This document shows, one piece after another, positions 7,331-52,748 of a DNA stretch of 64,000 bases (position 1 is its first letter; every line of letters starts with the position of its first letter). Origin of the DNA: Verrucomicrobia bacterium Tous-C9LFEB (GTDB lineage: Bacteria; Verrucomicrobiota; Verrucomicrobiia; Methylacidiphilales; UBA1321). The stretch spans positions 1 through 64,000 of the forward strand of contig NEUU01000008.1 of NCBI GenBank assembly GCA_002304345.1, in the 5' to 3' direction. Both the position numbers and the translations under genes were made by a program. The notes beneath the pieces were generated by a model. It was not told the origin of the DNA and ran no database searches. It saw only the letters and a list, made by a program, of their open reading frames with translations.

Positions 7331-7633
7331 TTATTTCCCGGCGCGTTGGGGTTCCTCGGGTTGATAAAAGTGTTCGTCGATGAGGGCGGCGCAGTAAGCG
7401 TCGACCGCATTCGCCGGTGTAAAGGGACGGGCCGCTTCGGCCCCTTCCGCAATGGCAATATCCTGGCCTGCGTCCGCGCCGAGCACGTCATAGACGACGA
7501 TCGACGGGTCATAGACCGCTTTTCCGTTGAGCGTTTCGGCCTTCCACGGCAGGGTCAGCAGCAGGCGCGCCCCGACATATTTCGGGTCGTGCACCGACAG
7601 GACAACGCGGCCAAGGGTGGTTCCAATTCTCAA
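7331..7633 (-). CDS. BMC vertex (pentamer) protein, EutN/CcmL family
   Basis: A 100-residue BMC-P protein that caps shell vertices as a pentamer. It starts with the beta-strand MRIGTTLGRVVLSV and contains the small barrel core typical of EutN/CcmL. Its C-terminal tail (about residue 70 onward) is longer than in minimal family members and charged. It overlaps the preceding vertex gene by four bases, so the two are probably translationally coupled. It is one of three divergent vertex paralogues in this operon. Confidence 0.92.
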   Translation of the reverse strand: MRIGTTLGRVVLSVHDPKYVGARLLLTLPWKAETLNGKAVYDPSIVVYDVLGADAGQDIAIAEGAEAARPFTPANAVDAYCAALIDEHFYQPEEPQRAGK

Positions 7634-7899
7634 TGGAGTCTCTCCTGATCAATGATGCCCATGACGCACCAGCGGGCGGGACTTTTCGGGTCCAAAACGA
7701 CATCGCGGGCCGCCCCGCCGTCGCTGGTGATCATCACGAGCTGATGAATGGCCGCACCCATCGGGTCCACCACAATCTGCGGGGCTCCGTCGATGGAACC
7801 ATCGGGTCCCACCGGCTGGGCAATGAGGAGTCGGTGGCCGTTCAAGCTGCTGTGCTTGACGGTCGACGTCACATGCCCTCGGATACGTGCCAGTTTCAT
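7630..7899 (-). CDS. BMC vertex (pentamer) protein, EutN/CcmL family
   Basis: An 89-residue BMC-P protein close to the canonical length. It has the N-terminal strand MKLARIRGHVTSTVKH, the LNGHRLLIAQPV turn, VDPMGAAIHQLVMI and the C-terminal VMGIIDQ strand. It lies 9 bp after the aldehyde dehydrogenase and overlaps the next vertex gene by four bases. Two further vertex paralogues are in the operon; whether they form mixed or separate pentamers cannot be told from sequence. Confidence 0.94.
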   Translation of the reverse strand: MKLARIRGHVTSTVKHSSLNGHRLLIAQPVGPDGSIDGAPQIVVDPMGAAIHQLVMITSDGGAARDVVLDPKSPARWCVMGIIDQERLH

Positions 7900-7908
7900 T
7901 TTTTCGGA

Positions 7909-9330
7909 TTAAAACATGTTCAAGCTGTTGACCATGACGCAACGGCGTGAGCGTGTGAACGTCATCGGGGTCGTCACGCCTTCGCCGGTCGGCGTGGCGA
8001 TGCTGAAGCTCAGGAAGCCTTCGCCTCCGAGTCCCAACCCCGTCATGCTCGGGCCGTTCTTGATGAACAGCGTCGTGTCGATGTCCTGCGCCATGCGGGT
8101 CAGGTTCTTCACGTTTTGCGAGTGCATGATACCGGTGTGCTTGTAACCGTGTTCGGACTTGATCGCTTCGGCGAGACCTTCTTCGAAGTTCTTCACGCGA
8201 ACGATCGGCAGGAAGGGCATCATCTGCTCTTCGTCAACGAAGAGATGCTTCGCATCCGTTTCACCGATGAGGAGGTCCGTCGCAGGAGCGACATTGAGGC
8301 CGATCTGCTTCGCGAGCACGGCGGCGTCGGCACCGATGAACTTCTTGTTCACCGAGGCGTGACCGCAACCTGCGCCCTGTCCTTCGGGGAAGGTAAAGGC
8401 AACCTTGGTCAGCGCGTCGACTTGTGAGCCGTTGAGCAGGACCGCTCCGGCGCTCTTCATCGCGGCGATGAGCTTGTCCGCAACAGACTCGACGACGAAC
8501 ACTTGCTTTTCACCAATGCAGAGCAGGTTGTTGTCGTAAGCCGCACCTTGAATGATGCTGCGGGCCGCGAGCTCGATATCGGCCGTCTCGTCGACGACGA
8601 CGGGAGGATTGCCCGGGCCGGCGCAGATGGCGCGTTTGCCGGTCTTCATCGCCGAGCGCACGACGGCGGGGCCGCCGGTAACGCAAAGGAGCTTGATCTT
8701 GTCATGCTTGACCATGGTGTCGAACGTCTCGAGCGAAGGCTTGAGAACGGTCGTCAACAGATCGGTGATGCCGGTCGATTGATAAATGGCTTCGTTGTAG
8801 GCACGAATCGCGATGGCCGCGCACTGGCTGGCCGAGGGATGCGTGTTGTAGCAAACCGCATTGCCCGCCGCGATCATGTTGATCGCGTTGCCGGTCAACG
8901 TCGGCACGCTGTGGGTGGACGGAGTGATCGCACCGATGACGCCCCACGGGGCGAAGTCGATGATGGTGAGACCGAAGTCGCCGCTGAACGCCATGCGTTC
9001 GAGGAATTCCACACCGGGGACGAGTTCGGCGCAAATGCCGAGCTTCTCGATCTTGTGCGGGAGGCGGCCAATCTTGGTTTCGTTGAATTCGATCGTGCCC
9101 CACTCCTTCGCGTTTTGCGCGCTGAGCTTGCGAATGGCGTTAATGGCACCCTTGCGGGCCTTGATTCCGCCTTCCTGCAATTTGAGGAACGACTCGTGAG
9201 CCGCGTTGGCGGCATCCTCCATGCGATCGTAAACGCCAAAGCCGGTCTTACCGGACTCAGCGGCCGCGATCTGCGGACGGAGGCGGGAGAGCACTTCGCT
9301 CACCACCTGGGCAATCAATTTATCATCCAT
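7909..9330 (-). CDS. CoA-acylating aldehyde dehydrogenase (PduP/EutE-like), BMC cargo
   Basis: A 473-residue enzyme of the acylating aldehyde dehydrogenase family, predicted to convert L-lactaldehyde, CoA and NAD to lactyl-CoA and NADH in the compartment lumen. The catalytic cysteine is C271 in NNLLCIGEK, and GPGNPPVVVDE near 238 is typical of the family. Residues 1-18 (MDDKLIAQVVSEVLSRLR) form an amphipathic helix like known N-terminal encapsulation peptides, followed by a flexible stretch. It lies between vertex genes, as in other PV-type loci. The lactaldehyde substrate is inferred from the pathway; propionaldehyde or acetaldehyde would be alternatives. Confidence 0.95.
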   Translation of the reverse strand: MDDKLIAQVVSEVLSRLRPQIAAAESGKTGFGVYDRMEDAANAAHESFLKLQEGGIKARKGAINAIRKLSAQNAKEWGTIEFNETKIGRLPHKIEKLGICAELVPGVEFLERMAFSGDFGLTIIDFAPWGVIGAITPSTHSVPTLTGNAINMIAAGNAVCYNTHPSASQCAAIAIRAYNEAIYQSTGITDLLTTVLKPSLETFDTMVKHDKIKLLCVTGGPAVVRSAMKTGKRAICAGPGNPPVVVDETADIELAARSIIQGAAYDNNLLCIGEKQVFVVESVADKLIAAMKSAGAVLLNGSQVDALTKVAFTFPEGQGAGCGHASVNKKFIGADAAVLAKQIGLNVAPATDLLIGETDAKHLFVDEEQMMPFLPIVRVKNFEEGLAEAIKSEHGYKHTGIMHSQNVKNLTRMAQDIDTTLFIKNGPSMTGLGLGGEGFLSFSIATPTGEGVTTPMTFTRSRRCVMVNSLNMF

Positions 9331-9357
9331 GTCTGAAACTTTCTTTTATTCGGCGAA

Positions 9358-9666
9358 TCAATGGGCCTTGTAGATCACGTTGCGGGCGATATCGATCGTA
9401 TCGACAATCCCCACCACCACGGCATCCACCGGCTGTTCCTTGTCCTTGACCCCGTTGCGGGCGGAGCTTCCCTGGACAATGAGAACCAGTTCACCCTCAC
9501 CCGCACCAAGCTGGTCAACGGCCACCAGAGTCGAGGAGCCCTTCTTGAATTCCTTCGAGGCGGGCGAGTCGACGTAGAGAGGACGGACGAGCAGGAATTT
9601 GCTGCCCGTCATCTTCTCGTTCTTCTTGGTGGCGACAATGCTGCCTTCCACCTGGGCCAGTATCAT
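9358..9666 (-). CDS. BMC vertex (pentamer) protein, EutN/CcmL family
   Basis: A 102-residue BMC-P protein with the N-terminal strand MILAQVEGSIVATKK, a VRPLYVD segment, VDQLGAGEGELVLIVQGSSA and a C-terminal DAVVVGIVDTIDI strand. The GxGxGELV core and the SSAR motif are the best matches to EutN/CcmL of the three vertex proteins here. It is followed 27 bp later by the aldehyde dehydrogenase and preceded by a hexameric shell gene, which supports membership of the shell operon. Confidence 0.94.
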   Translation of the reverse strand: MILAQVEGSIVATKKNEKMTGSKFLLVRPLYVDSPASKEFKKGSSTLVAVDQLGAGEGELVLIVQGSSARNGVKDKEQPVDAVVVGIVDTIDIARNVIYKAH

Positions 9667-9693
9667 AATTTTGGGGCGGTCAGTGAGACCGCT

Positions 9694-9978
9694 TTATTTA
9701 CCGGCCTTGGGCAACACGATGGCGAGGTCGTTGTGGGGGCGGGCGATGACGCTGGCCGAGACAACTTCACCGAGGCTCTGCGCGGCGGTCTTGCCGGATT
9801 CGATGGCGGCCTTGACGGCGGCGACATCACCGGTGACGGCGACCGTGACCATGGCGTTGCCGACCTGCGTGAACGGGCCGACGAGAGTGACGTTGGCGGA
9901 CTTGAGCATCGCGTCCGTGGCTTCGACGAGCGCGACCAGACCGCGCGTTTCAATCATACCGACTGCTTGTTGTGACAT
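9694..9978 (-). CDS. BMC hexameric shell protein (BMC-H)
   Basis: A 94-residue single-domain BMC shell protein (QQAVGMIETRGLVALVEA at the N-terminus, GDVAAVKAAIESG near 50, SVIARPHNDL near 76). Six copies form a flat hexamer that tiles the shell. The loop that lines the central pore reads QVGNAM here, unlike the KIGSG and IGGG loops of the two other shell paralogues in the operon, so its pore may pass different metabolites. It lies 27 bp upstream of a vertex gene and 52 bp after acetate kinase. Confidence 0.97.
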   Translation of the reverse strand: MSQQAVGMIETRGLVALVEATDAMLKSANVTLVGPFTQVGNAMVTVAVTGDVAAVKAAIESGKTAAQSLGEVVSASVIARPHNDLAIVLPKAGK

Positions 9979-10030
9979 ATCGTTACCTTTTTTCTATTTG
10001 GGTTGTTGTTAATTTTTCTGAAATGACTTT

Positions 10031-11230
10031 TTACTTCGCGCCCAGTTTCGTCCAGGCGTTGCGTGCGATGATGATTTCCTCATTGGTGGGAATCACCCGC
10101 ACTTGAATCTTGGAGTCCGGCGCACTGATCACGGCTTCCTGGCTGCGAACCGTCGCGTTGAACTTCTTGTCGAGCTTGAGCCCGCAGAAGGTCAGACCTT
10201 CGCAGACCGCCTCGCGCACCTGCCAGTCGTTCTCTCCGATACCGCCGGTGAAGACAATGACGTCCGCACCGTCGAGCTCGACGAGAAATTGACCGACATA
10301 CTTGCGAATCGCTCCGACGAAGACGTCGATGGCTACCCGCGCGTTTTCATTGCCCTTGCCCACCGCTTCCCAAAGATCGCGGACATCGCCCGTGGGCAAT
10401 CCCGACATTCCCTTGAGACCGGCATTCTTGGAGAGTTCCGACGCTGCCTTGTCCAATCCCAGCCCGCACTCGCGCGCCAGATAGGTGAAGGCAAACACGT
10501 CGAAATCGCCCACTCGATTGTTTTGTGGCAGACCGCTCTGCGGTGTCATACCCCAACTGGAATCAACCGCCGTGCCGTCCTTGACCGCGGCAATCGAGGA
10601 GCTCCCGCCCAAGTGGCAGGAAATCAAACGCATCTTCTTCGAACCGACGAGTTCCGCCGAACGCTCGGTGATGAAGCGGTGGCTCGCGCCATGGAATCCA
10701 TAGCGGCGAATCCCGTACTTCTCCTCCCACTCCAGCGGCACCGGGAAGCGGCGGTTATGCAACGGAACGTTGTCATAAAAGGCCGTTTCAAACGTGCCGA
10801 CGCACGGAATCCCCGCATACAACTTGTGGCAGGCGCGCACTCCCGCCACGTAGGGCGGATTGTGGGCCGGGAACAGGCTGTAGAGATCTTCCATGGCCTT
10901 GAGCACCGTCTCATCCAGGACTTGCGTTCCTGAGATGTTCTTGGCACCCACGGGCTTGAAGCCGAAGGCGGCGAGCTCGTGAAAGCTGCCGAGCACCTTC
11001 CCAATCAAATGCTTTTCCGCGAGGGAAAAAGCGGCGGCGTGATCCGGGCAGGCATCCTCGCCCGAAACCGCTTCCTGTCCTTCCACCTGGATTTTCCACG
11101 GGGAAAGAGGGCTGCCGATACGCTCCACGCCACCGCGCGCCAGCAGGCGTTCGGAGGGCATTTCGAACAAGCGGAACTTGAACGAGGTGGTGCCGATATT
11201 GGCAACGAGGATTTTGTTCGATTGGGACAT
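10031..11230 (-). CDS. ackA: Acetate kinase family acyl kinase
   Basis: A 399-residue ASKHA-fold kinase: ILVANIGTTSFKFRLF at the N-terminus, YGIRRYGFHGASHRFI near 170, SCHLGGSSSIAAV near 203 and the C-terminal FTGGIGEND segment near 327. In this operon it would turn the acyl-phosphate made by PduL (lactyl-phosphate, possibly acetyl-phosphate) into the free acid with ATP formation. No encapsulation helix is evident, so it may act in the cytosol. Its placement between hexameric shell genes is typical of PV-type BMC loci. The family name is certain; lactyl-phosphate as substrate is inferred. Confidence 0.95.
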   Translation of the reverse strand: MSQSNKILVANIGTTSFKFRLFEMPSERLLARGGVERIGSPLSPWKIQVEGQEAVSGEDACPDHAAAFSLAEKHLIGKVLGSFHELAAFGFKPVGAKNISGTQVLDETVLKAMEDLYSLFPAHNPPYVAGVRACHKLYAGIPCVGTFETAFYDNVPLHNRRFPVPLEWEEKYGIRRYGFHGASHRFITERSAELVGSKKMRLISCHLGGSSSIAAVKDGTAVDSSWGMTPQSGLPQNNRVGDFDVFAFTYLARECGLGLDKAASELSKNAGLKGMSGLPTGDVRDLWEAVGKGNENARVAIDVFVGAIRKYVGQFLVELDGADVIVFTGGIGENDWQVREAVCEGLTFCGLKLDKKFNATVRSQEAVISAPDSKIQVRVIPTNEEIIIARNAWTKLGAK

Positions 11231-40495: not shown

Positions 40496-41872
40496 CTAAC
40501 CTGCGACTCGTGCACCATCTCCATGCTGCACAAGGTAATCCGGAGCGTAGCTCAGCTTGGTAGAGCACTTGGTTTGGGACCAAGACGTCGCAGGTTCAAA
40601 TCCTGTCGCTCCGATTTTCCGCCATCCCGCGACATCTTGCGAAAAAGTGGGATTTCTCCTCTGTAGAACGACCTCCAAGACCGCATTTTCGTTGCGACAT
40701 TCTGCGACCGTTTTTGACGAGTTTTGACAATTTGCGGTAGAATTTTTAGTCCATTCCGTAGTCCACTTAGCCTGTCGCCGCTTCATCTTCAGTCCCGTAG
40801 TCTCCACGTGAGGCTTAAAACCCGCCGCATCCCTGTCCAAAATGGCGGCATCCGAATAGACTCCTGTGGTCAAATTCGGACTGGAATGTCTTGCCGCGTG
40901 CTGAGTCACCGAGACGGACGCCCCGTTCTGTTGCATCAGAGTAATAAAAGTACCCCGCAATGCGTGAAAATCGGCATAGCGGCCATTTTCATCGCAGTAA
41001 GGGATTCCCACGGCAGCCAAATCTTTGGCGAGTGTCTTAGGCCGAGGAACAAACTTAACGACTCGATCTTCTGGCATGCCCATCCGTTGCCGAAGCTCAG
41101 CCGCAAACTCTGGATTAATGCTCAAGGGCTGGAATTTCCGATTCTTGGTTATTTCAGGCGGCATCACCAAAATAGGCGTTGGCCGATCCAGTAGAAAATA
41201 CTTCCAGCGCAGTTGCCTAATTTCGTTGCGGCGCAGGCCTAAGCCAAAACCAATCTTGTACGCAAAGGCTCGATCCTCTGGCGAACTGGCGCACAGCTGA
41301 CCGATTTGCTCCACCGTCAATGAACGCCTTAGCCGCTTTCGCCCTTCCCCCTTGGGTACATTCAGCGCCGCCAACGGATTGACTGCCAGCAGACCATTGC
41401 GCACCGCCCACGACATGAACATTTGCCAATGCTTCGCCTTATTGACCAAGGACCGATCGGCCAAACCGGATTGCCCTGCCAGCCACCGCTGCAGAGGTTG
41501 AGGCTTAATGTCAGCCAGACGCCGAAACGAGCAAACCGCCATGGCTTGCTCCAAATCCCTCTTAGCGTCCTTACAGTACACGGCCACTCTCCCCAGCTCC
41601 TGCAAGTCTTGCAAGTAGGCGGCCACATGCTCCGCTAACGGCCTCGTAGCGTTGGTGAACTCCTTGTCTGTAGGTTCTAATCCTATCTCCTGACGGCCCC
41701 GCTTGCGCACCTCAGCCAGAGCCTTGCTTTGCGCCACGAGCTTATCGGGCGACTTCAGGTTAATCAGGATCAAGCGTCCAGACTCATCTTTCCAATGGCA
41801 GTAATAGCTTTTGGATTCAACCACTTTACCGTCGATACAACGCTTGCGTTTAAAGACAGGTACATTGTTCAT
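40496..41872 (-). CDS. int: Tyrosine recombinase/integrase
   Basis: A 458-residue integrase in the integrated state. An N-terminal arm-binding part and a SAM-like core-binding domain (about 75-165) precede the catalytic domain (about 185-345) with R214 (GLGLRRNEIRQL), H303 and R306 (DFHALRGTF), H329 (AARHSS) and nucleophile Y339 (TTGVYSDA). Residues 428-458 are encoded by the tRNA-Pro antisense strand, outside the element. In the excised circle the frame would instead continue for 66 other residues found at 45118-45317. It overlaps the HTH gene by four bases. Confidence 0.95.
   Translation of the reverse strand: MNNVPVFKRKRCIDGKVVESKSYYCHWKDESGRLILINLKSPDKLVAQSKALAEVRKRGRQEIGLEPTDKEFTNATRPLAEHVAAYLQDLQELGRVAVYCKDAKRDLEQAMAVCSFRRLADIKPQPLQRWLAGQSGLADRSLVNKAKHWQMFMSWAVRNGLLAVNPLAALNVPKGEGRKRLRRSLTVEQIGQLCASSPEDRAFAYKIGFGLGLRRNEIRQLRWKYFLLDRPTPILVMPPEITKNRKFQPLSINPEFAAELRQRMGMPEDRVVKFVPRPKTLAKDLAAVGIPYCDENGRYADFHALRGTFITLMQQNGASVSVTQHAARHSSPNLTTGVYSDAAILDRDAAGFKPHVETTGLKMKRRQAKWTTEWTKNSTANCQNSSKTVAECRNENAVLEVVLQRRNPTFSQDVAGWRKIGATGFEPATSWSQTKCSTKLSYAPDYLVQHGDGARVAG
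40541..40614 (+). tRNA. tRNA-Pro (anticodon TGG)
   Basis: A full cloverleaf: acceptor CGGAGCG with CGCTCCG, D-arm GCTC...GAGC, anticodon arm CTTGG-TTTGGGA-CCAAG with anticodon TGG, T-arm with TTCAAAT, discriminator A; CCA is not encoded. Its 3' end is the integration site of the element that follows. Confidence 0.97.
40591..40636. repeat. attL, left 46-bp attachment repeat
   Basis: Identical to 45318-45363. It begins in the T-arm of tRNA-Pro and runs 22 bp past the tRNA end, so integration leaves the tRNA complete. Confidence 0.92.
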
Positions 41873-42051
41873 GCTAACTCCATTCCGAAATGTTCGCGTT
41901 CAAAATCGCGAATGACTTCCAAAGGCCAGCTTTTGTGTCCAAGAAAATAAACGGGCTCGGGAATTTCCTTGGAGTGAATTTTTCTCTCGAGTGTACGGCG
42001 TGTAACGCCCCAGCGCTGAGCCAGCATAACGATTGATAATCGTGTCGGCAT
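41869..42051 (-). CDS. Excisionase-like helix-turn-helix protein
   Basis: A 60-residue protein with a MerR/excisionase-type winged HTH: RLSIVMLAQRWGVTRRTLER followed by a wing-like PVYFLGHKSWPLEVI. It overlaps int by ATGA, the usual arrangement for directionality factors. It probably bends attachment DNA and favours excision. ATG 42051 is chosen; ATG-like 42063 adds four residues. The 200-bp region upstream has A/T-rich palindromes around ACGCGTT that may be its binding sites or the promoter. Confidence 0.8.
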   Translation of the reverse strand: MPTRLSIVMLAQRWGVTRRTLERKIHSKEIPEPVYFLGHKSWPLEVIRDFEREHFGMELA

Positions 42052-42063
42052 ATAGTTCCTCAC

Positions 42064-42266
42064 AGTAGGTCAAAAAGCGTAAAAACGCGTTTTGACGATT
42101 TTTTTAGGTTCTATCTGCCGATCTTGGGAGCCAGCGCTACCAACCCAATTTCGGTTACTTTAAGCCCCCGCGTCAAAATGCACTGTTTCCGTGGTATTTA
42201 GTTAACGCGTTTTTTAAGGGAATCTGCCAACGGATGTTTCTTCTCTATATACTGATATAGAAACTG
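42064..42266. other. Non-coding region upstream of the excisionase gene
   Basis: AT-rich. Contains AAAAACGCGTTTT (about 42080-42092) and TTAACGCGTTTTTT (about 42203-42216), sharing an ACGCGTTTT core. These may be regulator or excisionase sites. No ORF is seen. Confidence 0.45.
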
Positions 42267-42800
42267 TCAATTACTTTTTCTATAATAATCAATAGCCGTC
42301 GTCGAAAATTTGAAGGCCGTAGTAATCTGAGCATGGAGCGCTCTTGTTTCATATTCTCTTTTTACTTGGACGTGACAAATGGGAATAGCCGCACCGGTTA
42401 ATGCCGAATCCACGAAGTGATCCCGGCTCTTGCGATTCTCTTGAGCATGAGTCCGATCATCTAGTTCGATCACCCCTAATACTTTCATGGTAGCAGGATG
42501 CACACAAACAAAGTCCACGTGTTTCCCGGCTATCCTGTTAAAGGCGGCGTAATAGCCTCTCCTGCCATTCAAACTCTTGGGGCGAATGATGTCTGCCAGT
42601 CGCACCTTAGGGAAGATCGTAAACGCACCTCCTATAGCTTTTTGCAAGCTGCGGTAAAACGCCTGTTCTGCAGGGGTAAGGAGAATAACTTGCGCCTCGT
42701 AATTTCCATCCCTTTGGCTAGTGGATTTGCCTTCGACCAGCAACTTTAAAATGGCACAGACAACGATCAGCAAAACCGCAACAACAATAAGTGTTCCCAT
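42267..42800 (-). CDS. DUF2726 protein with N-terminal membrane anchor
   Basis: A 177-residue protein: one transmembrane helix at the N-terminus (about 3-22) followed by a DUF2726 domain (about 35-150) with FPKVRLADII, HVDFVCVHPATMKVLGVIELDD and SRDHFVDSAL. The fold is related to restriction-endonuclease-like nucleases, and the D-x(n)-E-x-D pattern in this one is kept. Role in the element is unknown. ATG 42800 is chosen over TTG 42806. Confidence 0.82.
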   Translation of the reverse strand: MGTLIVVAVLLIVVCAILKLLVEGKSTSQRDGNYEAQVILLTPAEQAFYRSLQKAIGGAFTIFPKVRLADIIRPKSLNGRRGYYAAFNRIAGKHVDFVCVHPATMKVLGVIELDDRTHAQENRKSRDHFVDSALTGAAIPICHVQVKREYETRALHAQITTAFKFSTTAIDYYRKSN

Positions 42801-42840
42801 GGCCAAAGATTACGCGGTCATCACAGAAAGACGCAACAAC

Positions 42841-42862
42841 AAAAGCGCGCTATAGCGCGCTT
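42841..42862. promoter_or_regulatory. Candidate operator of the XRE repressor
   Basis: AAGCGCGCTATAGCGCGCTT is a perfect 20-bp palindrome about 22 bp before the repressor start and 43 bp from the start of the divergent DUF2726 gene. Position and symmetry suit autoregulation. Confidence 0.65.
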
Positions 42863-42882
42863 ACAAAATAGCATACTGCGGC

Positions 42883-43113
42883 ATGATTAAGAACGTGAAG
42901 CAATCACCCCACGTCATTTTTGGGAGGAATCTCTGCCGACTCCGCAACGAAGCCGGACTGACTCAGGAAGCCTTGGCTGAAAAAGCCGACATCAGCCGCC
43001 GCTTCCTTCAGGAGATTGAGGCAGGAACTAAAAATCCTACCGTAAATGTAATCGTCCCGCTGAAGAGATCTCTCAAGTGTAATTGGAACGAACTTATGGA
43101 AAACTGCATTTAG
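42883..43113 (+). CDS. XRE-family repressor
   Basis: A 76-residue helix-turn-helix protein with the Cro/CI-type fold (FGRNLCRLRNEAGLTQEALA, then DISRRFLQEIEAGTKNPT). It is the only plus-strand gene of the element and lies between two divergent minus-strand genes, in the position of an immunity-type repressor. A palindrome AAAGCGCGCTATAGCGCGCTT (about 42841-42861) just upstream is a likely operator. Confidence 0.88.
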   Translation: MIKNVKQSPHVIFGRNLCRLRNEAGLTQEALAEKADISRRFLQEIEAGTKNPTVNVIVPLKRSLKCNWNELMENCI

Positions 43114-43123
43114 TTTGCAGATT

Positions 43124-43726
43124 TTATTCTTTAGATTCCTTTAACCCTTTTTCGATCATAGCCGGTAGCGAGAATAAAAAAGCTCCTAGGGCCATAGCAA
43201 AATCAAAAACTCTTTTTGCGTCTTCTACATTAGGCATGGCTTCAGCTTCATCAGCATGTCGTTGATCGTTAGCTTGCAGCCTAACTTGGTGGGCCCATTT
43301 TGCCATTTCCTTCGTAATTAAGTGCTCGGTAGCAGCTTTCTCTATGCGTTCATAGAGGGAGCCATCCTTATACCCTTTTACCTTTAGCATCGCATCGACA
43401 GCACTAGCAGCAACCATAATAGATGCCGCAGGAGTATGAAGCGACTCGTTAGCTTGCATTAAATAATCCCGAGGCCGCTGTGGAATATTTACGTCAATAG
43501 AGGTAGATTTTGGAAAATAGTTAATTACCTCTAACTCTGCTCGTTTGGCGTATGCTGAAACCAACATGCTACAGTTGGAACATAGATACACTCGCCAGAC
43601 TTGGATAGGAAATCCATTCTGTTGCTGAGTATTGAATTCCCCAACTTTCGATAGTAATGGCCTAGCTATTCCGCAATGTGGACAGCGTTGCAGTTCTAGA
43701 TTCTGTGAGAGCAAAAGAATATTCAT
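43124..43726 (-). CDS. DUF4145 protein with zinc-ribbon-like N-terminus
   Basis: A 200-residue protein. Two Cys pairs (CPHCG near 15-19 and CSNC near 49-52) suggest a zinc ribbon; the rest matches DUF4145, a helical domain common in mobile elements and near restriction genes, including AASIMVAASAVDAMLKVKGY and QANDQRHADE. Function is unknown. It ends 10 bp from the convergent repressor gene. Confidence 0.82.
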   Translation of the reverse strand: MNILLLSQNLELQRCPHCGIARPLLSKVGEFNTQQQNGFPIQVWRVYLCSNCSMLVSAYAKRAELEVINYFPKSTSIDVNIPQRPRDYLMQANESLHTPAASIMVAASAVDAMLKVKGYKDGSLYERIEKAATEHLITKEMAKWAHQVRLQANDQRHADEAEAMPNVEDAKRVFDFAMALGAFLFSLPAMIEKGLKESKE

Positions 43727-43893
43727 ACTACTTACTTATTAAAAGAATGCTCGAAAGCATTCGAAGATCAAGCGCGAAGCACGCTGTGTCACGTGAGGCG
43801 GCAACGGTAACGAAACAACGGCTTCTTTTTCAGGCACGCCAATTTCGCGCCAAGGCTTTGGCACGAAATCGGACTTGTGCGGAGATTGAGAGT

Positions 43894-43926
43894 AGAAATC
43901 GCCCCTTTTTTTGCGGGGGGCGATTT
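43894..43926. terminator. Hairpin downstream of rep
   Basis: AAATCGCCCC and GGGGCGATTT form a 10-bp stem around a T-rich loop. It lies 56 bp beyond the rep stop codon on the minus strand and could end rep transcription or serve as a single-strand origin. The rest of 43727-43981 shows no gene. Confidence 0.5.
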
Positions 43927-43981
43927 GCTCAGGACGCAGAGCGGAAAGTAAATACGTTTTTACTCCAACATCCGCCGCGCT

Positions 43982-44815
43982 TCAGCACTTTGCGGGCCCC
44001 TTCATCCAACGCGCCAATTTTGTCGCATCACACTGATTCCAGCTTGCGGTAAGAGAGTCGAAACCGCTACTCAGTGGAGGTTTTTCCAGCAGAGTTGTCA
44101 GTGAGTACTTTTGTTTCTGCGGTGCTTTATGTGAGTTCTTGCGTCTTTCTAAAGCCCTCCTCATGACCTCAGCTCGACGGTCACTCACTATCCGCTTTTG
44201 AGCCTTTGCCTCCCCATACATTCTTTCCCATGCCAGACGTCGCATATGCTCGAGTTTCATGAGCCGAACGGCCTTCCAGTTTCCATCTATTATCGCCACG
44301 CGAAATCTCATGTAGTCAGCGAAGGAAATTTTATGCCCTTTGAAGATACGAGCCATCCATTCTGAAATTGTATCTACCTTTTCAATGTCCCGGACTTTGA
44401 CTCCCTTAAAACCCCCAATCGTGTGCCACCTTTGAGCACCTGCAAACCACCGACCTTTGGACTTCCCTAGATATTTGGAAAGGTAGTAAAGCTGTTGCCT
44501 ATCTTTTACAACCGCCACCTGCATACGCCCAAATCCGTGACGGACGCCAATGCTCCTAAGCACATTCACGTTCAGGCGACGATTTACGATGCAGTGAAAA
44601 TGCAACCCGTGGTTAGCATGTAGCTCCGTAACTTTAACCCCAAATACTGTCCCGTTGTATTTCCTCTGAACATCACGGATAAACCATGACCACAGCTCAC
44701 ACGCCTGCCAATCAGGAACCACCTTAATAAAGGTGAATGTCCAAAAATAGAGATTGGGAAAGGTATCGACTAGCTTATCGACCGTCATGAGAAACGCCGC
44801 TTTGGACTTATTCAT
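43982..44815 (-). CDS. rep: HUH-type rolling-circle replication initiator
   Basis: A 277-residue protein with the two HUH motifs: HANHGLHFHCIVNRR near 66-80 (His-hydrophobic-His) and the catalytic Tyr region QLYYLSKYLGKSKG near 108-121. The start of the protein contains FWTFTF near 26, which resembles motif 1. This layout is shared with replication-associated proteins of small plasmids and microviruses or inoviruses. It would nick the leading-strand origin and start replication of the excised circle. A strong hairpin lies just upstream. The basic C-terminal third (about 175-240) may bind DNA. Confidence 0.85.
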   Translation of the reverse strand: MNKSKAAFLMTVDKLVDTFPNLYFWTFTFIKVVPDWQACELWSWFIRDVQRKYNGTVFGVKVTELHANHGLHFHCIVNRRLNVNVLRSIGVRHGFGRMQVAVVKDRQQLYYLSKYLGKSKGRWFAGAQRWHTIGGFKGVKVRDIEKVDTISEWMARIFKGHKISFADYMRFRVAIIDGNWKAVRLMKLEHMRRLAWERMYGEAKAQKRIVSDRRAEVMRRALERRKNSHKAPQKQKYSLTTLLEKPPLSSGFDSLTASWNQCDATKLARWMKGPAKC

Positions 44816-44844
44816 GGGGGAAACGTTTATATATTAACAAGGTT

Positions 44845-44880
44845 AGAGGGCGCGGCTCGCCTGCGGCGAGCGAGCGCCCT
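44845..44880. other. Candidate double-strand origin hairpin upstream of rep
   Basis: AGGGCGCGGCTCGC...GGCGAGCGAGCGCCCT forms a near-perfect 16-bp stem with a short loop, 30 bp before the rep start. It is the strongest GC-rich hairpin in an AT-rich element. Rolling-circle origins commonly sit at hairpins beside rep; the nick site itself cannot be named. Confidence 0.5.
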
Positions 44881-44908
44881 AGCGCTGTCAAAATTGAGAC
44901 GGTTCGCG

Positions 44909-45121
44909 TCATGGCCGCTCCAAATGCGTCACTGCAGGAGATTTGCTCGGAAGCAGCTCAATGGAGTATCCCTTACGCTCCTCTCGCAGAATGACTGAAT
45001 GACGCGACCGCTGGGCCACCTTCTCAAGCAACTCATAAAAGAAGGCCGAGTCGATCCCTCCCCGCGTGTAATGGTAAAGGAGCGACGCAATTTCAAGCTC
45101 AGCATGGCTCAGGAATTTCAT
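44909..45121 (-). CDS. Small hypothetical protein of the element
   Basis: A 70-residue protein starting at ATG 45121 after a strong GGAGGGG ribosome-binding site. It begins MKFLSHAELEIASLLYHYTR and is mostly helical, with no recognised domain. Its start overlaps the stop codon of the detached integrase tail (ATGA), so in the circular form it would be translationally coupled to int. It precedes rep on the same strand. Confidence 0.75.
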   Translation of the reverse strand: MKFLSHAELEIASLLYHYTRGGIDSAFFYELLEKVAQRSRHSVILREERKGYSIELLPSKSPAVTHLERP

Positions 45122-45384
45122 TTCCCCTCCATTCCTGAATCGACCGACGCGATAATGGAGAGAATCGCTTGTTGCAAGGGGGGCGACAAACGCGGCCAAA
45201 GCTGGACAATCCGCACCAGAGCGAGCGCCGACTCCGATTCAGTCCATTTTTCAGTCCACTGAGTGTTTATGGTCTTGCAACTATTCTGAGCCCCAGTAAC
45301 TTGCGTAGGTGGATCAACAGGTTCAAATCCTGTCGCTCCGATTTTCCGCCATCCCGCGACATCGAGTGCTTTCGACAATCTCAA
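45118..45384 (-). other. Detached integrase C-terminal coding segment across attR
   Basis: The frame through attR reads AGWRKIGATGFEP, exactly as the int frame does through attL, and continues into 66 residues (QWTEKWTESESALALV and ILSIIASVDSGMEGK among them). The offset between the two att copies, 4727 bp, keeps the codon phase, so in the excised circle these codons fuse to int and give a protein of about 493 residues. In the integrated state only a weak TTG start is available, so this segment is probably untranslated. Confidence 0.8.
45318..45363. repeat. attR, right 46-bp attachment repeat
   Basis: Exact copy of 40591-40636, including the last 24 bases of tRNA-Pro. It marks the right end of the element. 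Confidence 0.92.
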
Positions 45385-45767
45385 AAAGACAGCCTTACTT
45401 CGTCGTTTTATTTATCGTCTCAATGACGGCAACGCCGCACGCAGAAACCGAAAGCGGGGAAGCGTAGTGAGGCATTCGTACCGAGGGCTCGGCGAGGACA
45501 TAAGTAAAAGCGAATGAGAATATTAGCGTTACTCTCTTTTAATAGAATCACGCTGCCGGGTTAATGCCGTACTGGCATGTTCGCCTTGATTTACAATTGA
45601 AAAAAAAAGTTCCCTGCCTACGCTCAGAACTATCTATGAGGGGAATGGGGAAATGGGGTAGGGCGGGATTCAACGACAAAAGCAATCATTTGTCGACCAG
45701 TTTTACTTCTTTCAATTTTCTTCGTTGGGGACTCCATTTTTAATCAGGGCAGGAGCTTCGTGTACTT
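45385..45767. other. Non-coding region between attR and the giant protease gene
   Basis: No supported gene or strong repeat. AGGAG at 45751-45755 lies 12 bases before the protease ATG. Composition is intermediate in GC. Confidence 0.5.
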
Positions 45768-48700
45768 ATGAATAGTAATAACCGTTTTTTAATTTCGGTT
45801 CTGGGCGTTTTAATTTTGCTGGCTCTGATCGTTGGAGGGAGCGCGTATTACAGGCAAACCCATCCCCGGCAAAACGCGGTGGGAGTATCTCATCGCCCCG
45901 GCAATCTGGATCGGAATACGACCGGTAATTTGGGAAAATCGAGCTTGCCGGGCGTGGCGACAGGCCGCAAGGCAGGAAGCACTTTTATCCAAACCTCTTC
46001 AGCGGCCAAAGGAAAAGGCGGCGCAGTAAAATCGAAAGAAACTCCCATGGCTTCCGTGCGAGGAGCTTTCTTGAAAGATGCCCAGAAGGTTGCCTATCGG
46101 GATGAACCGGCCAATGCGTCAGGGGAATTCAAACGCGTCAGCCTTTGGCGGACGAATATGAAATATCCTCTTCTTCGCGTGGAAGAGGTAATTATCCGCG
46201 AAGGTCCGCTGAACGAGGAGATCGTGATTTCTCAGCAGGCGTCGGTCGCAGATCATATTGTAATCAAAATCCAGCCTGGAGTTTCGGATCAAGACTTCAA
46301 CAAAATGGTAAATGGACAAGGCGCGACGATCTTAAGAAAGATTGCCGGAACCGATTTGTATATCGTGCATTTGCCTAACGCCCATCTTGATACACTACCT
46401 CAAGCGGTCGCGAGTTTCAGCGCGAAGAAAGACCTTCTCCAATATGCGGAATCTGACCCCGTAGTGAGCACTCAGCTTACCGCGAACGATCCCAATTACT
46501 CTCAGGAATGGGGCCTGCACAATACCGGGCAGACCGGCGGTAAAGTTGGGGCGGATATTGATGCGCCTAACGCCTGGAGTGTCACCACTGGCAGCTCCGC
46601 AATTACCGTGGCCGTCATTGATACCGGAGTCGATTCTACGCATCCCGATCTAGCGACGAATATTGATACCGTTAACGGCTGGAATTTTTACAACGACAAT
46701 AACAACCCGGCTGACGACAATTTTCACGGCACTCACGTTTCCGGAACAATCGGCGCGGTCGGCAACAACAGCGTCGGCGTAACCGGCGTCGCGTGGAAGG
46801 TGAAAATCCTGCCTTTAAAATTTCTCTCCGCGAACGGCAGTGGCTACCTTAGTGACGCAATTGCGGCCATTCAGTATGGCATCTCTAAAAGAGTCAACAT
46901 CATGTCCAATTCGTGGGGCGGCGGCGGCTATTCTCAAGCACTGAAAGACACCATTGATGCGGCGGCGCAGGCCAACATCCTTTTTGTAGCTGCGGCCGGG
47001 AACGACTCCAACAACAATGACCTGCAACCAACATACCCCGCGGCCTACGCCTGTTCAAATATCATTGCGGTGGCAGCGACAGATGCCAATGATCAACTAG
47101 CGAGCTTCTCCAATTATGGCGCGACCACAGTGCAAATCTCCGCTCCTGGCGTCGGAATTCTCAGTACATTCCCCGTAGTCACCACGACAGCCATGCAGAG
47201 TCGTGGTCTCTCGGCCAGTTACGGTCGGATCAGTGGAACCTCCATGGCAACACCGCACGTAACGGGTGCCGCCGTGCTGGCACTGACGCAAAACCCTTCC
47301 CTGACCGTTTCACAACTTCGGTCTCTGCTAATCCAACGTTGCGCCCATCTATCCAACCTAGCGGGCCTCGTACAAGGCGGCAACCGGCTGAATGCGTACA
47401 ATCTCGTTAATTCGGCATGGCAGTCCGCCCCCCCACAACTCGGCCTGTTGAAATTCAAGATGGATGACTCGGAAGGCAACAATGATGGCTATTCCAATCC
47501 GGGTGAAATCATCCACGTGACGCCGACCATTATGAATTCTGGCGGCCAAACAGCCTCTGGCGTCACACTCCAGCTCGTCTCCCAGCAGGCCACGGCCACC
47601 ATTCTCACTCTCTCAAACATTACCGCGGGCGATTCCAATCCGTACCAACCACTTACGCCTCTTATCCCTTTTCGCATTCAACTCAGCACCGCATTGACTG
47701 ATAATGCCGTGCTTAATTTTGACCTGCTCATCATCCAAAAAGACGGAACCACCACTCATGCGCCCTTCACCATAGCCGTAACAAAGCCGCAGCCGAAGGC
47801 GGAAGTTACGCTCAATTTCGCCTGCGGCGAAATGAAAGCAGATCCCGTCCGCAACCTCGTCTATTTGATTAATAAGACTGACCACCGCGTTCTGGCAATT
47901 GACACGGCCCAAGGCCAGGTAAGTGCTGTCGGAGCCTTGGATGGAGATCCCACGGTAAAGGCCCCGGTTGAAAACGGCTCATTGCAATCCGGCCAAATGG
48001 CAATTTCTCGCGACGGGACCAAACTCTTTGTGGCCCTCACCTCGGATAATAAGATTCAAGTCTTGTCCCTTCCCGATCTCACTCCCTTATACACGCTCGA
48101 TGTAGATTTCTCCCCCGAAAGTCTGGCCATTGGCGTGAGTGATCGCTTGTACGCCTCATCGACCGACTACTGGGGAAAAATCCGGGAAGTCAATAGTACC
48201 ACCGGGCAAACAGTCCAGACCTTCGATAAGGGCAATAGCCAACAGTTCTATATGCATGCCCTGCTACGCACCAATCTTGACGGCACGAGTCTCTATGTAG
48301 CCGAAACAGGCCTCAATGTCGTCGGTGGCCCCGGCTATGTATATCAATACAATATCACCGGTGCGCAGGCCTCCTTATCAAAGCAACACCCGTTCTCGAT
48401 GGTTTATCTCAAAGATTTTGCCATCGATGAACCGCAGCAACGCCTCTATACGATGAACGGCGGAATCTATGGAGTTCAAGTGACTGATATGGTTTCCGGA
48501 ACCTACGGCGACGTGTGGCCGCTCAACAGTGCTTATGGTGTTGGCCTGGCCTTCCTGTCGAACGACTCGGTCATCTACGGCGTCTCTGGAGATCCCTATG
48601 CCGGCACAATTCGCAAATTCCAACGCACGGATGGCGCCGTTTTAGGGGATTACATCGTAGGAAATAATGGCGCCGCCATACCCTCCCGAGGGATTGCCAT

Positions 48701-51700
48701 CACTCCCAATGGAGCCCTGATTTACATTAAAGATCAATACACCGGCAACGCCACGCAGTGCAAAGTTGGCATCGTCGGGCGCGCATCACTGACGGTGAAC
48801 AATCCGCCACCGACCCCAGCGACGGCGGCAATCAAGCTGGCCTCCATCCAATTCTCAGACCTCGAAGGGAACGGCAATTCCATTCCGAACTCGGGTGAGA
48901 TCATCACCCTCACGCCAACTTTGGCCAATAGCGGCGCCGTATCCGCCACCGATGTCACTGTGCAAATTTCGGTCGGAAGTGGTGGGACACTCCTGTCGTC
49001 TGCCACACAGACGCTCAACACCATTACTGGCGGCACGTCCCAAACAGCGAACGCTTGCCGGATACAATTGGTTTCAGGTTTGGCCGCCGGGACAACCATT
49101 CCTGTCTCATTCACAGTCACTTGGAACGGCACCCAAACTAAGACCTTCACCTACACAGTGATTATCCAAGCAGATCGCACCACCGCTGAAATTCAAAGCT
49201 CACTGCAGTTCGGCGAAATTCTTGCGGACCAACAGCGTAATATTGTTTATGTGATCGATAAACGTAATTTGCGCCTTCTCGCTTTAAATACAGACACGGG
49301 CCATGTCGACATGGCAGTCGCTCTCGCTCGCCCTAGTTCTGCATCGGGAACACCCCCCACACCCGGTGCCATGGCGGAATCCGTAGACGGCACAAAACTG
49401 TATGTAGCGCTGAATAAGTCAAAAATGATCCAAGTATTTTCGCTGCCAGATCTCACACCGCTGGCCGTCTGGAGCTACGATTTCGAACCGTGCCTACTCA
49501 CCACCAGTTCGGTGGATTCTCTATACTGTATTACTTCGGATCCTACGCAAAATCTCGTGCAAATCAACTCCTCAACCGGTGCCGTACTGGGGCATATTGG
49601 TGATTGGACATCCAGCGGATACGGTGCACGAGGGGAGTTGATCCGCAATGCGGCTGGAACCGAAATCTATAGCACAAAATATGCGTCCAGCACCATCACC
49701 CGCTACACGGTCGGGGCGAATGGCGCCCTCAGCATTCTGTCCAACTATTCATCTGCCAGCGCCGCATTTGCATTGGATGAAAGCCGCTCCTGCCTCTATA
49801 TCCTAAGCAGCAATACAACGGTATCCGTTCGATCCCTTGCGGGAGTAACTCTTGCCTCATGGGCATCCGGCTGGGGCTCCATTTCCTACCTCCCCGGAAG
49901 CACGTCAGTACTGGCCTTGTCCTCTGGCTCGAGCGGCGCGATGATCCGAAGATTCTCCTGCACTAGCGGCGCTGTATTGCAAGACTACCCGATAAATGGT
50001 GGAGACGTCGTTCCGCATGGGCTGGCAACAACCCCAAACGGACGCACCGTTTACGTCAAGAACAGCTGGATTGGCTCCTCAACGGCTGACTCTGTCGACG
50101 GCTATCGGTACTGGATAGGGATCATCGGACTTGGCTCCATCGATCTGGATGTTCCCGGAAACGTTCCTGTCGTGCTGAAAAACGTTACATTGACAGATCC
50201 AGCCCCTGGCAACACAGACGGATACGCTAATCCCGGCGAAACCATTCAACTGGCCGCTGTGCTCAAAAATGTGAGTGCGTACAGCTTGAATAATATCACC
50301 GTCGAACTGCTCTCCTCCAATCCATTGGCCGTAGTGCAATCACCATCCCTGCGCACAATTGGAAACGTGAATAGCTATGTCAGCTTCACTCCTTCACCAA
50401 ACTTCGCCGTGGTACTGAACTCTTCATTGACCGATGGCGCGGAAATTAAGCTGACCTTCCGCGTGACATCCAGCGCCGGAACACAACTCATCCCCTATTC
50501 TCTGATTATATCGGCTCCCGTGAATGCAGAAACTCAGGTTCCTTTTGCCATTGGGGAGATGATTGCCGATCGAACACGCAATCTCGCCTATGTCATAGAT
50601 AAAACCAACCAGCGCTTGATAGCCATCGATACCGAAGCAGGGAATGTCGCCAAATCGGCCAAATTGGTTGGAGATCCCGGCGAGGGTCGAATGACCATTT
50701 CACCCGACGGATCCAGGCTCTACGTAGCGATTGCAAATGCGAATAAAATTCAGTCATTCAATCTCCCTGCCCTTGAGCAAGCTGATATTATCGATCTCAA
50801 TTTTTCTCCAATTGGACTTGCTGCCGCGTCTGACGGCAAATTATATGCAAGCTCGGCAAGCAGCGGCTATTTGTGGCAAATCGACCCTGCAACGGGCCAA
50901 ATAATAGGCCAGTTTGGCAGAAGAACGTACTACTATGGTTCCGCGCTCAAGCTGAGCGGCGATGGAAGTCGATTGTATATTGCGGAACTTGGCTTGAGCA
51001 GTTCAACCGCGCAACTGGATGAATATCTAATCAGAACATCTGGGATGCCAATATATAATGGCTGGTATCCCTATAGCATGGCTAATGACATTGACCTTGC
51101 TGTAGACGATACTTACGGAAGAATTTATGTTATGGCGGGTGGAATTTACGGAATTGGCGTCACAGATATGACCACCGGCATCGGCAATCTAATCTGGCCC
51201 TTCGGCGCCCCCTATGGAGTAGCCATGTGTTTTCTACCGGGTGGAAATGTCATATATGGCGGCTGTGGGTCCACCTATGATTACGCCATCTATAAGTTTG
51301 ATCGAGTCAGCGGACAAAGAATTGGTAGAATGGTGGCGCCTAAACCGAATGCCGATTTAATGCCTCGAGCGATGGTGATTACCGCCAATGGTCGAATCAT
51401 TTATGGAAAATCCGAATGGACAGGCTCAGGAGCAGGAATAGGTGGATATTACTACACTCTTGGCATTATTGGCCGTGCTTCACTGACTATCAATTCACCC
51501 AGTTTAGCACCGACACTCTACCTCGGAGCAGACCAACTCGTCCGCTTATCGAACGCTGCATCGCTCTCGCTTTCTTCTTCAAGTACTGACAATTTGACAA
51601 CCAACTGGACCATCGTAAATGGCCCAAAGGGAGCCTTCTTTGATGCCGCTGACGCCAACAACAGCGCCGCAGCCAGCTTCTCTGCCCCAGGCGTATACCG

Positions 51701-52496
51701 TGTACGAGCCACCGCCAACAACGGATCAAGCCATGCCAGCGACGAAATCACCGTTACTGTCCTTCCTGACCCCGCCAGCGTTTCTGTTACAGCACCAGCA
51801 CCAATCGCAATTCAAGGAATGGCCGCTGGCCAATTGATGTTCAGCCGCACGGGTCTGTCGAGCGGAGCATTGGACGTTGCCTACACCGTTTCCGGCACAG
51901 CTATTCCAGGCAGCGACTACGCTTCCTTGACCGGCACGATCACGATTCCTGATGGCTACTCATCCACATCAATTCAAATTGTTCCACTAAGAGTTGCGAC
52001 CACCGATTCCACCGTCACAGTTCAACTGACCACCTCCACCAACTATAATCTTGGGATCTCCCAGTCAGCGACCGTTACGTTCAAAAAACGCTCCTTTGAT
52101 AGCTGGCAAGCAGCGAAACTCAGTGGTCAAATAACCTCGAATCAATCCGCATCCGCGTCTCCATCAGGAGATGGCATTCCTAACCTCATCAAATATGCAT
52201 TGCAATTAGATCCGCTGGCAAATGCGACCGCAGGATTGCCCACCACAAATACAGCGACGCAAAACGGCAACCATTACCAGACCTTGACATACAAGCGACT
52301 TCAAAATGTTTCTGACATCACCTATCAAGTGGAAGTATCCAACGATCTCCTGCATTGGGACTCCGGCACAACCTACACCACAGAAACCAGCGTTGTTCCA
52401 AACAGCGACGGGACAGAAACTGTGACCGCGCAAGATAAAATCTCGATCGGGACAGTGCCCACGCGTTTTATCCGTCTCAAGATTGTCAAACCATAG
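45768..52496 (+). CDS. Giant subtilisin-like secreted protease with three propeller modules
   Basis: A 2242-residue protein. A signal anchor (about 8-27) is followed by a long linker, an inhibitor-like propeptide region (about 150-235) and a subtilisin S8 domain with D285 (VAVIDTGVDSTHPD), H320 (FHGTHVSG) and S492 (GTSMATPHV). Then come three tandem modules, each a CARDB-like beta-sandwich (DGYSNPGE, IPNSGE, DGYANPGE) and a YVTN/NHL-type propeller (for example VYLINKTDHRVLAIDT). An Ig-like and a Calx-beta domain (about 2000-2110) precede a C-terminal domain common in secreted Verrucomicrobia proteins (DGIPNLIKYAL...RFIRLKIVKP). It probably acts at the cell surface. More AT-rich than core genes. 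Confidence 0.9.
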   Translation: MNSNNRFLISVLGVLILLALIVGGSAYYRQTHPRQNAVGVSHRPGNLDRNTTGNLGKSSLPGVATGRKAGSTFIQTSSAAKGKGGAVKSKETPMASVRGAFLKDAQKVAYRDEPANASGEFKRVSLWRTNMKYPLLRVEEVIIREGPLNEEIVISQQASVADHIVIKIQPGVSDQDFNKMVNGQGATILRKIAGTDLYIVHLPNAHLDTLPQAVASFSAKKDLLQYAESDPVVSTQLTANDPNYSQEWGLHNTGQTGGKVGADIDAPNAWSVTTGSSAITVAVIDTGVDSTHPDLATNIDTVNGWNFYNDNNNPADDNFHGTHVSGTIGAVGNNSVGVTGVAWKVKILPLKFLSANGSGYLSDAIAAIQYGISKRVNIMSNSWGGGGYSQALKDTIDAAAQANILFVAAAGNDSNNNDLQPTYPAAYACSNIIAVAATDANDQLASFSNYGATTVQISAPGVGILSTFPVVTTTAMQSRGLSASYGRISGTSMATPHVTGAAVLALTQNPSLTVSQLRSLLIQRCAHLSNLAGLVQGGNRLNAYNLVNSAWQSAPPQLGLLKFKMDDSEGNNDGYSNPGEIIHVTPTIMNSGGQTASGVTLQLVSQQATATILTLSNITAGDSNPYQPLTPLIPFRIQLSTALTDNAVLNFDLLIIQKDGTTTHAPFTIAVTKPQPKAEVTLNFACGEMKADPVRNLVYLINKTDHRVLAIDTAQGQVSAVGALDGDPTVKAPVENGSLQSGQMAISRDGTKLFVALTSDNKIQVLSLPDLTPLYTLDVDFSPESLAIGVSDRLYASSTDYWGKIREVNSTTGQTVQTFDKGNSQQFYMHALLRTNLDGTSLYVAETGLNVVGGPGYVYQYNITGAQASLSKQHPFSMVYLKDFAIDEPQQRLYTMNGGIYGVQVTDMVSGTYGDVWPLNSAYGVGLAFLSNDSVIYGVSGDPYAGTIRKFQRTDGAVLGDYIVGNNGAAIPSRGIAITPNGALIYIKDQYTGNATQCKVGIVGRASLTVNNPPPTPATAAIKLASIQFSDLEGNGNSIPNSGEIITLTPTLANSGAVSATDVTVQISVGSGGTLLSSATQTLNTITGGTSQTANACRIQLVSGLAAGTTIPVSFTVTWNGTQTKTFTYTVIIQADRTTAEIQSSLQFGEILADQQRNIVYVIDKRNLRLLALNTDTGHVDMAVALARPSSASGTPPTPGAMAESVDGTKLYVALNKSKMIQVFSLPDLTPLAVWSYDFEPCLLTTSSVDSLYCITSDPTQNLVQINSSTGAVLGHIGDWTSSGYGARGELIRNAAGTEIYSTKYASSTITRYTVGANGALSILSNYSSASAAFALDESRSCLYILSSNTTVSVRSLAGVTLASWASGWGSISYLPGSTSVLALSSGSSGAMIRRFSCTSGAVLQDYPINGGDVVPHGLATTPNGRTVYVKNSWIGSSTADSVDGYRYWIGIIGLGSIDLDVPGNVPVVLKNVTLTDPAPGNTDGYANPGETIQLAAVLKNVSAYSLNNITVELLSSNPLAVVQSPSLRTIGNVNSYVSFTPSPNFAVVLNSSLTDGAEIKLTFRVTSSAGTQLIPYSLIISAPVNAETQVPFAIGEMIADRTRNLAYVIDKTNQRLIAIDTEAGNVAKSAKLVGDPGEGRMTISPDGSRLYVAIANANKIQSFNLPALEQADIIDLNFSPIGLAAASDGKLYASSASSGYLWQIDPATGQIIGQFGRRTYYYGSALKLSGDGSRLYIAELGLSSSTAQLDEYLIRTSGMPIYNGWYPYSMANDIDLAVDDTYGRIYVMAGGIYGIGVTDMTTGIGNLIWPFGAPYGVAMCFLPGGNVIYGGCGSTYDYAIYKFDRVSGQRIGRMVAPKPNADLMPRAMVITANGRIIYGKSEWTGSGAGIGGYYYTLGIIGRASLTINSPSLAPTLYLGADQLVRLSNAASLSLSSSSTDNLTTNWTIVNGPKGAFFDAADANNSAAASFSAPGVYRVRATANNGSSHASDEITVTVLPDPASVSVTAPAPIAIQGMAAGQLMFSRTGLSSGALDVAYTVSGTAIPGSDYASLTGTITIPDGYSSTSIQIVPLRVATTDSTVTVQLTTSTNYNLGISQSATVTFKKRSFDSWQAAKLSGQITSNQSASASPSGDGIPNLIKYALQLDPLANATAGLPTTNTATQNGNHYQTLTYKRLQNVSDITYQVEVSNDLLHWDSGTTYTTETSVVPNSDGTETVTAQDKISIGTVPTRFIRLKIVKP

Positions 52497-52748
52497 AGAG
52501 TATTATTGACGTCATTTAAAATGATTCATTTCCACTTTCAAAAAATGACATCGCCATACAGAACTTGACCGGAGTGCTTTTTTTACAGCATTGAGGAGAT
52601 GGAACAAGTGCCTAGAATCTCCCACCACTGCCCGAAAATTGGTCTCTTGCAGGCATCTATGGCCTTCTGATAGTATCATACCCTCTATTTAATTGTCTTT
52701 GCACCCTTACCTTGCGTTAGCCACGTAAGTGGCTGTAAATCAATATAA

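Follow-up and report, generated by a model that had tools for sequence, protein, structure and literature searches.

What becomes of an integrase gene when the site at which its element recombines lies within the gene's own reading frame? The question is raised by a locus in the window, the 64,000-nucleotide stretch of DNA analyzed here (positions 1 to 64,000 of contig NEUU01000008.1 from Verrucomicrobia bacterium Tous-C9LFEB), which holds a 4.7-kb integrative element of the rolling-circle type whose entire attP probably lies inside the int coding sequence. An exact 46-bp direct repeat, read here on the minus strand, occurs at 40591–40636 and again at 45318–45363, with a spacing of 4,727 bp. 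The first copy adjoins a complete tRNA-Pro(tgg) gene at the int end of the element (40541–40614, plus strand; ARAGORN), the integration target, and corresponds to int codons ~413–427 (DVAGWRKIGATGFEP); the distal copy is read in the identical phase. In its chromosomal form, int (40496–41872, minus strand; PF00589) encodes 458 amino acids, the 31 residues beyond the core being supplied by the chromosome, antisense to tRNA-Pro (40496–40590, minus strand). Read round the closed circle, the gene encodes 493 amino acids, with 66 residues past the core; this circle-only tail and its stop (45118–45317, minus strand; tail profile A3) are an orphan frame when the element is integrated. The original prediction had held that int and the frame at 45118–45384 share a phase across the repeat, that the circular gene ends in a 66-residue tail whose stop overlaps a 70-residue gene followed by rep, and that integration replaces this tail with 31 residues antisense to the tRNA; all three claims were confirmed on the sequence.

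How much of the enzyme does recombination exchange? The window integrase matches PF00589 (E = 2.6e-7) and carries the R-K-H-x-x-R-H-Y catalytic set of tyrosine recombinases. These residues (R214, K243, H303, R306, H329, and Y339) lie upstream of the core and are invariant in alignment A1. Because they all precede residue 340, only the far C terminus is exchanged.

What follows the tail in the circle? Its stop codon (TGA) overlaps the start of a 70-amino acid open reading frame, orf70 (44909–45121, minus strand; ATGA, AAATGAAA), for which family searches, including PHROG, gave no match. Between orf70 and rep lies a GC-rich hairpin (44849–44880, minus strand; −17.7 kcal/mol, z = −3.4), a candidate double-strand replication origin. 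The rep gene (43982–44815, minus strand) encodes a rolling-circle initiator of the G2P type with the HUH motif LHFHCIV, and it matches PF23343 just below the Pfam cutoff (E = 4.7e-6) and PHROG 3419 (E = 1.2e-5). On the other side of int, the stop of a gene for an xis-like HTH protein (41869–42063, minus strand; weak match to PHROG 66) overlaps the int start (ATGA; GCATGAAC). Since the tail stop likewise overlaps the next start, xis, int, tail, orf70, and rep make up one compact gene series in the circle. A simple sigma-70 scan of 44750–45770, weak evidence in itself, found no promoter, and rep may still have a promoter of its own when integrated. The remaining genes include two for cargo proteins, a DUF2726 protein (42267–42806, minus strand; PF10881) and a DUF4145 protein (43124–43726, minus strand; PF13643). 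A Cro/C1-type HTH gene (42883–43113, plus strand; PF01381), probably encoding a repressor, diverges from the xis-int side; the palindromic sequence AAAAAGCGTAAAAACGCGTTTTGACGATTTTT upstream of xis (42072–42103) is a possible operator for it.

How is the integration site arranged in the absence of the element? The tRNA-Pro and tRNA-Leu genes are 44 bp apart in a congeneric genome that has no element between them and 12 kb apart in the window, so the interval consists of the 4.7-kb element and ~7.4 kb of other DNA. This other DNA (45364–52748) includes a gene for a 2,242-amino acid repeat protein, subtilisin-like by motif, that is perhaps cargo of an older island. In the window, 22 bp of the 46-bp repeat fall outside tRNA-Pro; the figure for relatives is usually 0–5 bp. 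An older second integrase behind the distal copy was considered as the source of these 22 bp and was rejected, as no int remnant is found there. The window's own genome carries a second orphan tail (G000:C23:21991–22149), probably from a decayed element: a tRNA-Ala gene lies at a distance of ~19 kb in the direction expected, but there is no recognizable int. Searches of viral contigs and phage records returned no relative, and hence no natural circle was found; a plasmid search yielded distant integrases only, at ~24–30% identity among the matches listed.

Is the in-frame tail present in related elements? A scan of 142 related genomes turned up relatives of int, and the better matches mostly had 25–37% identity; for scanning genome contigs, alignment A2 was suitable (A1 was too diverse). 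Family members occur, for example, in the cultured Haloferula luteola, Luteolibacter pohnpeiensis, and Planctomycetales ZRK34. Their int 3′ ends almost all run antisense into a tRNA gene, be it for Met, Tyr, Val, Gln, Pro, Glu, Ser, Asp, Ala, Cys, His, Leu, Arg, or, in cases added later, Asn. Such an overlap was found at 26 of 30 different family loci (the count omits a duplicate and a locus that only adjoins its tRNA, and it includes an open reading frame running through its tRNA) and at none of nine other integrases; in most of those nine, a tRNA lies close to the start of the gene instead. For relatives whose other element end was available, the distal core was taken as the longest exact match, chosen regardless of frame, and phases were compared only afterward. 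In all 22 elements with an uninterrupted core (the window and 21 relatives; cores of 19–46 bp), int continues in phase into a homologous tail, and 18 of the 22 were not in the training set of the tail profile, to which the other four contributed. The finding that the original prediction had named as its refutation, relatives with an unconserved tail frame, did not turn up among the 22. The elements range from 2.4 to ~107 kb. If all were independent, the chance of this outcome would be (1/3)^22 = 3e-11; because the elements are related, the independent tests are fewer than 22.

Did the tail keep pace when the integrase moved to another tRNA or another frame? Together, the 22 elements use all three antisense frames and over a dozen tRNA isotypes. 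The int tree requires 16 tRNA changes and ~7 frame changes (the starred branches force ~5), and the tail followed each frame change; the window integrase sits on a long branch, at 32% identity or less to the other rows of the tree. Genome G234 has related elements side by side at a single tRNA-Asn (L149 and L152), and their two integrases read the same core in different frames—as NGCPGWDRTSD in one and KMAARAGIEP in the other—each with its own tail in phase. L080 and G025 have diverged cores that are in phase over the T-loop segment but contain a 2-bp offset, and they were left out of the 22. The core search gave no convincing core for L146 and L140.

Some loci depart from the simple layout. 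At one (G074, 7371–10281), two integrase genes are adjacent: the first has its complete tail within one open reading frame and overlaps the second, which ends in tRNA-Met and has a matching orphan tail ~27 kb away. At another (G123:C5, 61317–169000), ~107 kb separates int from an orphan tail in phase with it, which suggests a very large element; the core is 28 bp long, and an int-like fragment stands immediately upstream of its distal copy. At the small end, a 2.4-kb element (L090, 8891–11374) apparently has little besides int and tail.

What kind of segment is the tail? Its last ~30 residues read LxxVVxAWPxLxxxLKxAILAIVxS, and the W and the next L are invariant in 12 sequences. AlphaFold2 predicts a low-confidence lead followed by a confident helical hairpin, the conserved part (45130–45240, minus strand; two helices, mean pLDDT ~82–92 per 10-residue block). 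Over the full length of the tail, dN was below dS in six of six pairs compared (e.g., 0.079 vs. 0.241), although the last 35 codons alone did not have dN below dS in the pair L138/L145. By these sequence measures, the tail is a protein segment under purifying selection. No Pfam or NCBIfam model covers it, and a PDB fold search with the tail model matched no solved structure. Of 388 genomes in the window's phylum, 38 carry the tail, as do 65 of 294 in the phylum of Planctomycetales ZRK34. It is mostly a short orphan open reading frame, as expected if most genomes are sequenced with the element integrated.

Repeats with the look of arm-type sites also fall within the coding sequence. In the window, a pair TGGACT(N6)TGGACT with 12-bp spacing lies inside int (40748–40765, minus strand), a layout shared by relatives, and another with the same spacing inside the tail (45241–45258, minus strand). 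In most elements, the strongest direct repeat flanking the core falls near −140 to −159 and +35 to +78 and exceeds shuffled sequences; inverted repeats across the core are shorter than direct ones in nearly all. The window's own exact direct repeat across the core is only 8 bp, which is not above shuffles, with TGGACT twice on each side. These paired repeats look like candidate arm-type sites; since they flank the core, the whole of attP, from P arm to P′ arm, would be coding.

How general is the placement of rep behind the tail? A rolling-circle rep lies 3′ of the tail on the strand of int in 16 of 19 elements below 9 kb (window included, along with one degenerate copy, in G096), and in the small relatives its start usually overlaps the tail stop. 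Most of these genes belong to PF23343 (some just below the cutoff), two to Rep_1, and one to Rep_trans; thus, different rep families share one slot. Elements of ~20 kb (G004b, G008a, and G025) keep the tail but lack an adjacent rep, so the coupling does not hold throughout the family.

How does this arrangement compare with known systems? In Tn916-type elements, excision places promoter-bearing DNA from the int side next to genes of the opposite end, but those are conjugation genes rather than rep, and the int frame is unswapped. Archaeal "suicidal" (SSV-type) integrases resemble the window integrase in having the recombination site within the gene (PMC8371274). There, however, integration splits the N-terminal from the catalytic part, whereas the window's catalytic domain stays whole: its catalytic residues end near position 339, and the core begins at codon ~413. 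Closer precedents exist for each half of the design. A review describes how, in the Myxococcus phages Mx8 and Mx9, attP is located toward the 3′ end of int, which acquires a new 3′ end and a changed recombination specificity on integration, the swapped form of Mx8 Int staying active (PMC6070905). As in the window, attP is inside int and integration swaps the C terminus, and in Mx8 Int, too, an antisense-tRNA-like peptide (STGLEP) precedes a long tail. Mx8 Int nevertheless scores only ~2–3 bits against both int profiles of the window's family, does not match the tail profile, and by sequence is not a member; Mx8 is also a large tailed phage with no rep annotated behind int. For the haloarchaeal virus SNJ2, the accessible text describes excision as joining int to far-end genes, including a rolling-circle Rep, and as building a replication operon and a new open reading frame across attP (PMC13107129). 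The likeness is a same-strand rolling-circle rep that lies downstream of int only in the circle, as in the window and most small relatives. SNJ2 differs in being archaeal, in that the new frame, as described there, lies downstream of int rather than forming its own C terminus, and in that this text describes no family-wide tail. A literature search that covered few subscription papers found no description of the present family, its tail, or its frame tracking.

We therefore regard an explanation from the circular form—attP within int, tail and rep coupled to circularity—as very probable. In the circle, translation of int would run on past the core to the end of the tail with its helical hairpin; full-length integrase would be made, and ribosomes would continue to rep. 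Integration at a tRNA 3′ end would swap the tail for arbitrary tRNA-antisense residues and leave tail and rep at the element's far end, with int no longer upstream. The hairpin may be needed for full integrase function, most likely in integration or in assembly with other integrase molecules, and the tailless enzyme would be weaker or altered, so that integration would be stabilized. By analogy with Mx8, the chromosomal integrase is probably altered rather than dead, and by analogy with SNJ2, the circle is probably the main source of rep expression. The anatomy is read directly; from it, and with good precedent, we infer a "circularity switch" that controls which form of the integrase is made as well as the expression of rep. 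We hold more tentatively, at somewhat short of an even chance, that topology itself is the signal: only in circular form would the element encode the complete integrase and lead ribosomes on to rep, integration would disarm the recombinase and shut off replication, and excision would restore both, the frame being re-established at each new tRNA.

Could the tail be explained without a role in recombination? The open frame might do no more than pass ribosomes along from int to rep by translational coupling, its residues being neutral, and the stop-start overlap of tail and rep in most small elements fits such a role; yet the conserved hairpin residues, the excess of dS over dN, and the retention of the tail in ~20-kb elements with no rep behind it make this unlikely. 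The tail might instead be a degradation or stability signal, the two integrase forms differing in half-life and not in recombination chemistry. A short helical stretch at the C terminus, placed behind a long linker modeled with low confidence, could act in this way, but no known degron is recognized in the tail, and we consider this account rather improbable. That the chromosomal end is the normal one and the circular tail a chance read-through of the att repeat is so improbable that it hardly competes with the circular-form explanation. Antisense tRNA frames are often open, and read-through of a tRNA is thus not rare by itself, but this account is already contradicted by the 22 of 22 elements in which int, in one or another of three frames, is in phase with a homologous tail, and the chromosomal ends show no likeness among relatives beyond the residues that the tRNA dictates.

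What does the design mean for these elements? Both of its halves have precedents, the C-terminal swap in Mx8/Mx9 and the circle-only int-rep operon in SNJ2, and, judged from sequence, the same in-frame arrangement recurs in many Verrucomicrobia and some Planctomycetes. What had been a curiosity of two Myxococcus phages becomes the design of a whole family found in at least two phyla. It combines a protein domain that is under selection and encoded only in the circle, an attP that probably lies wholly within coding sequence, and a modular slot for rep. Standard annotation is predicted to give these integrases the wrong end, made of tRNA-antisense residues, and to miss the real C terminus as an orphan open reading frame. 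The family also offers many natural cases for studying how integrases can move to new tRNA targets without closing their own frames. If the topology reading is true, the Verrucomicrobia and Planctomycetes would harbor a large, undescribed integrase family that signals by the topology of its own DNA.
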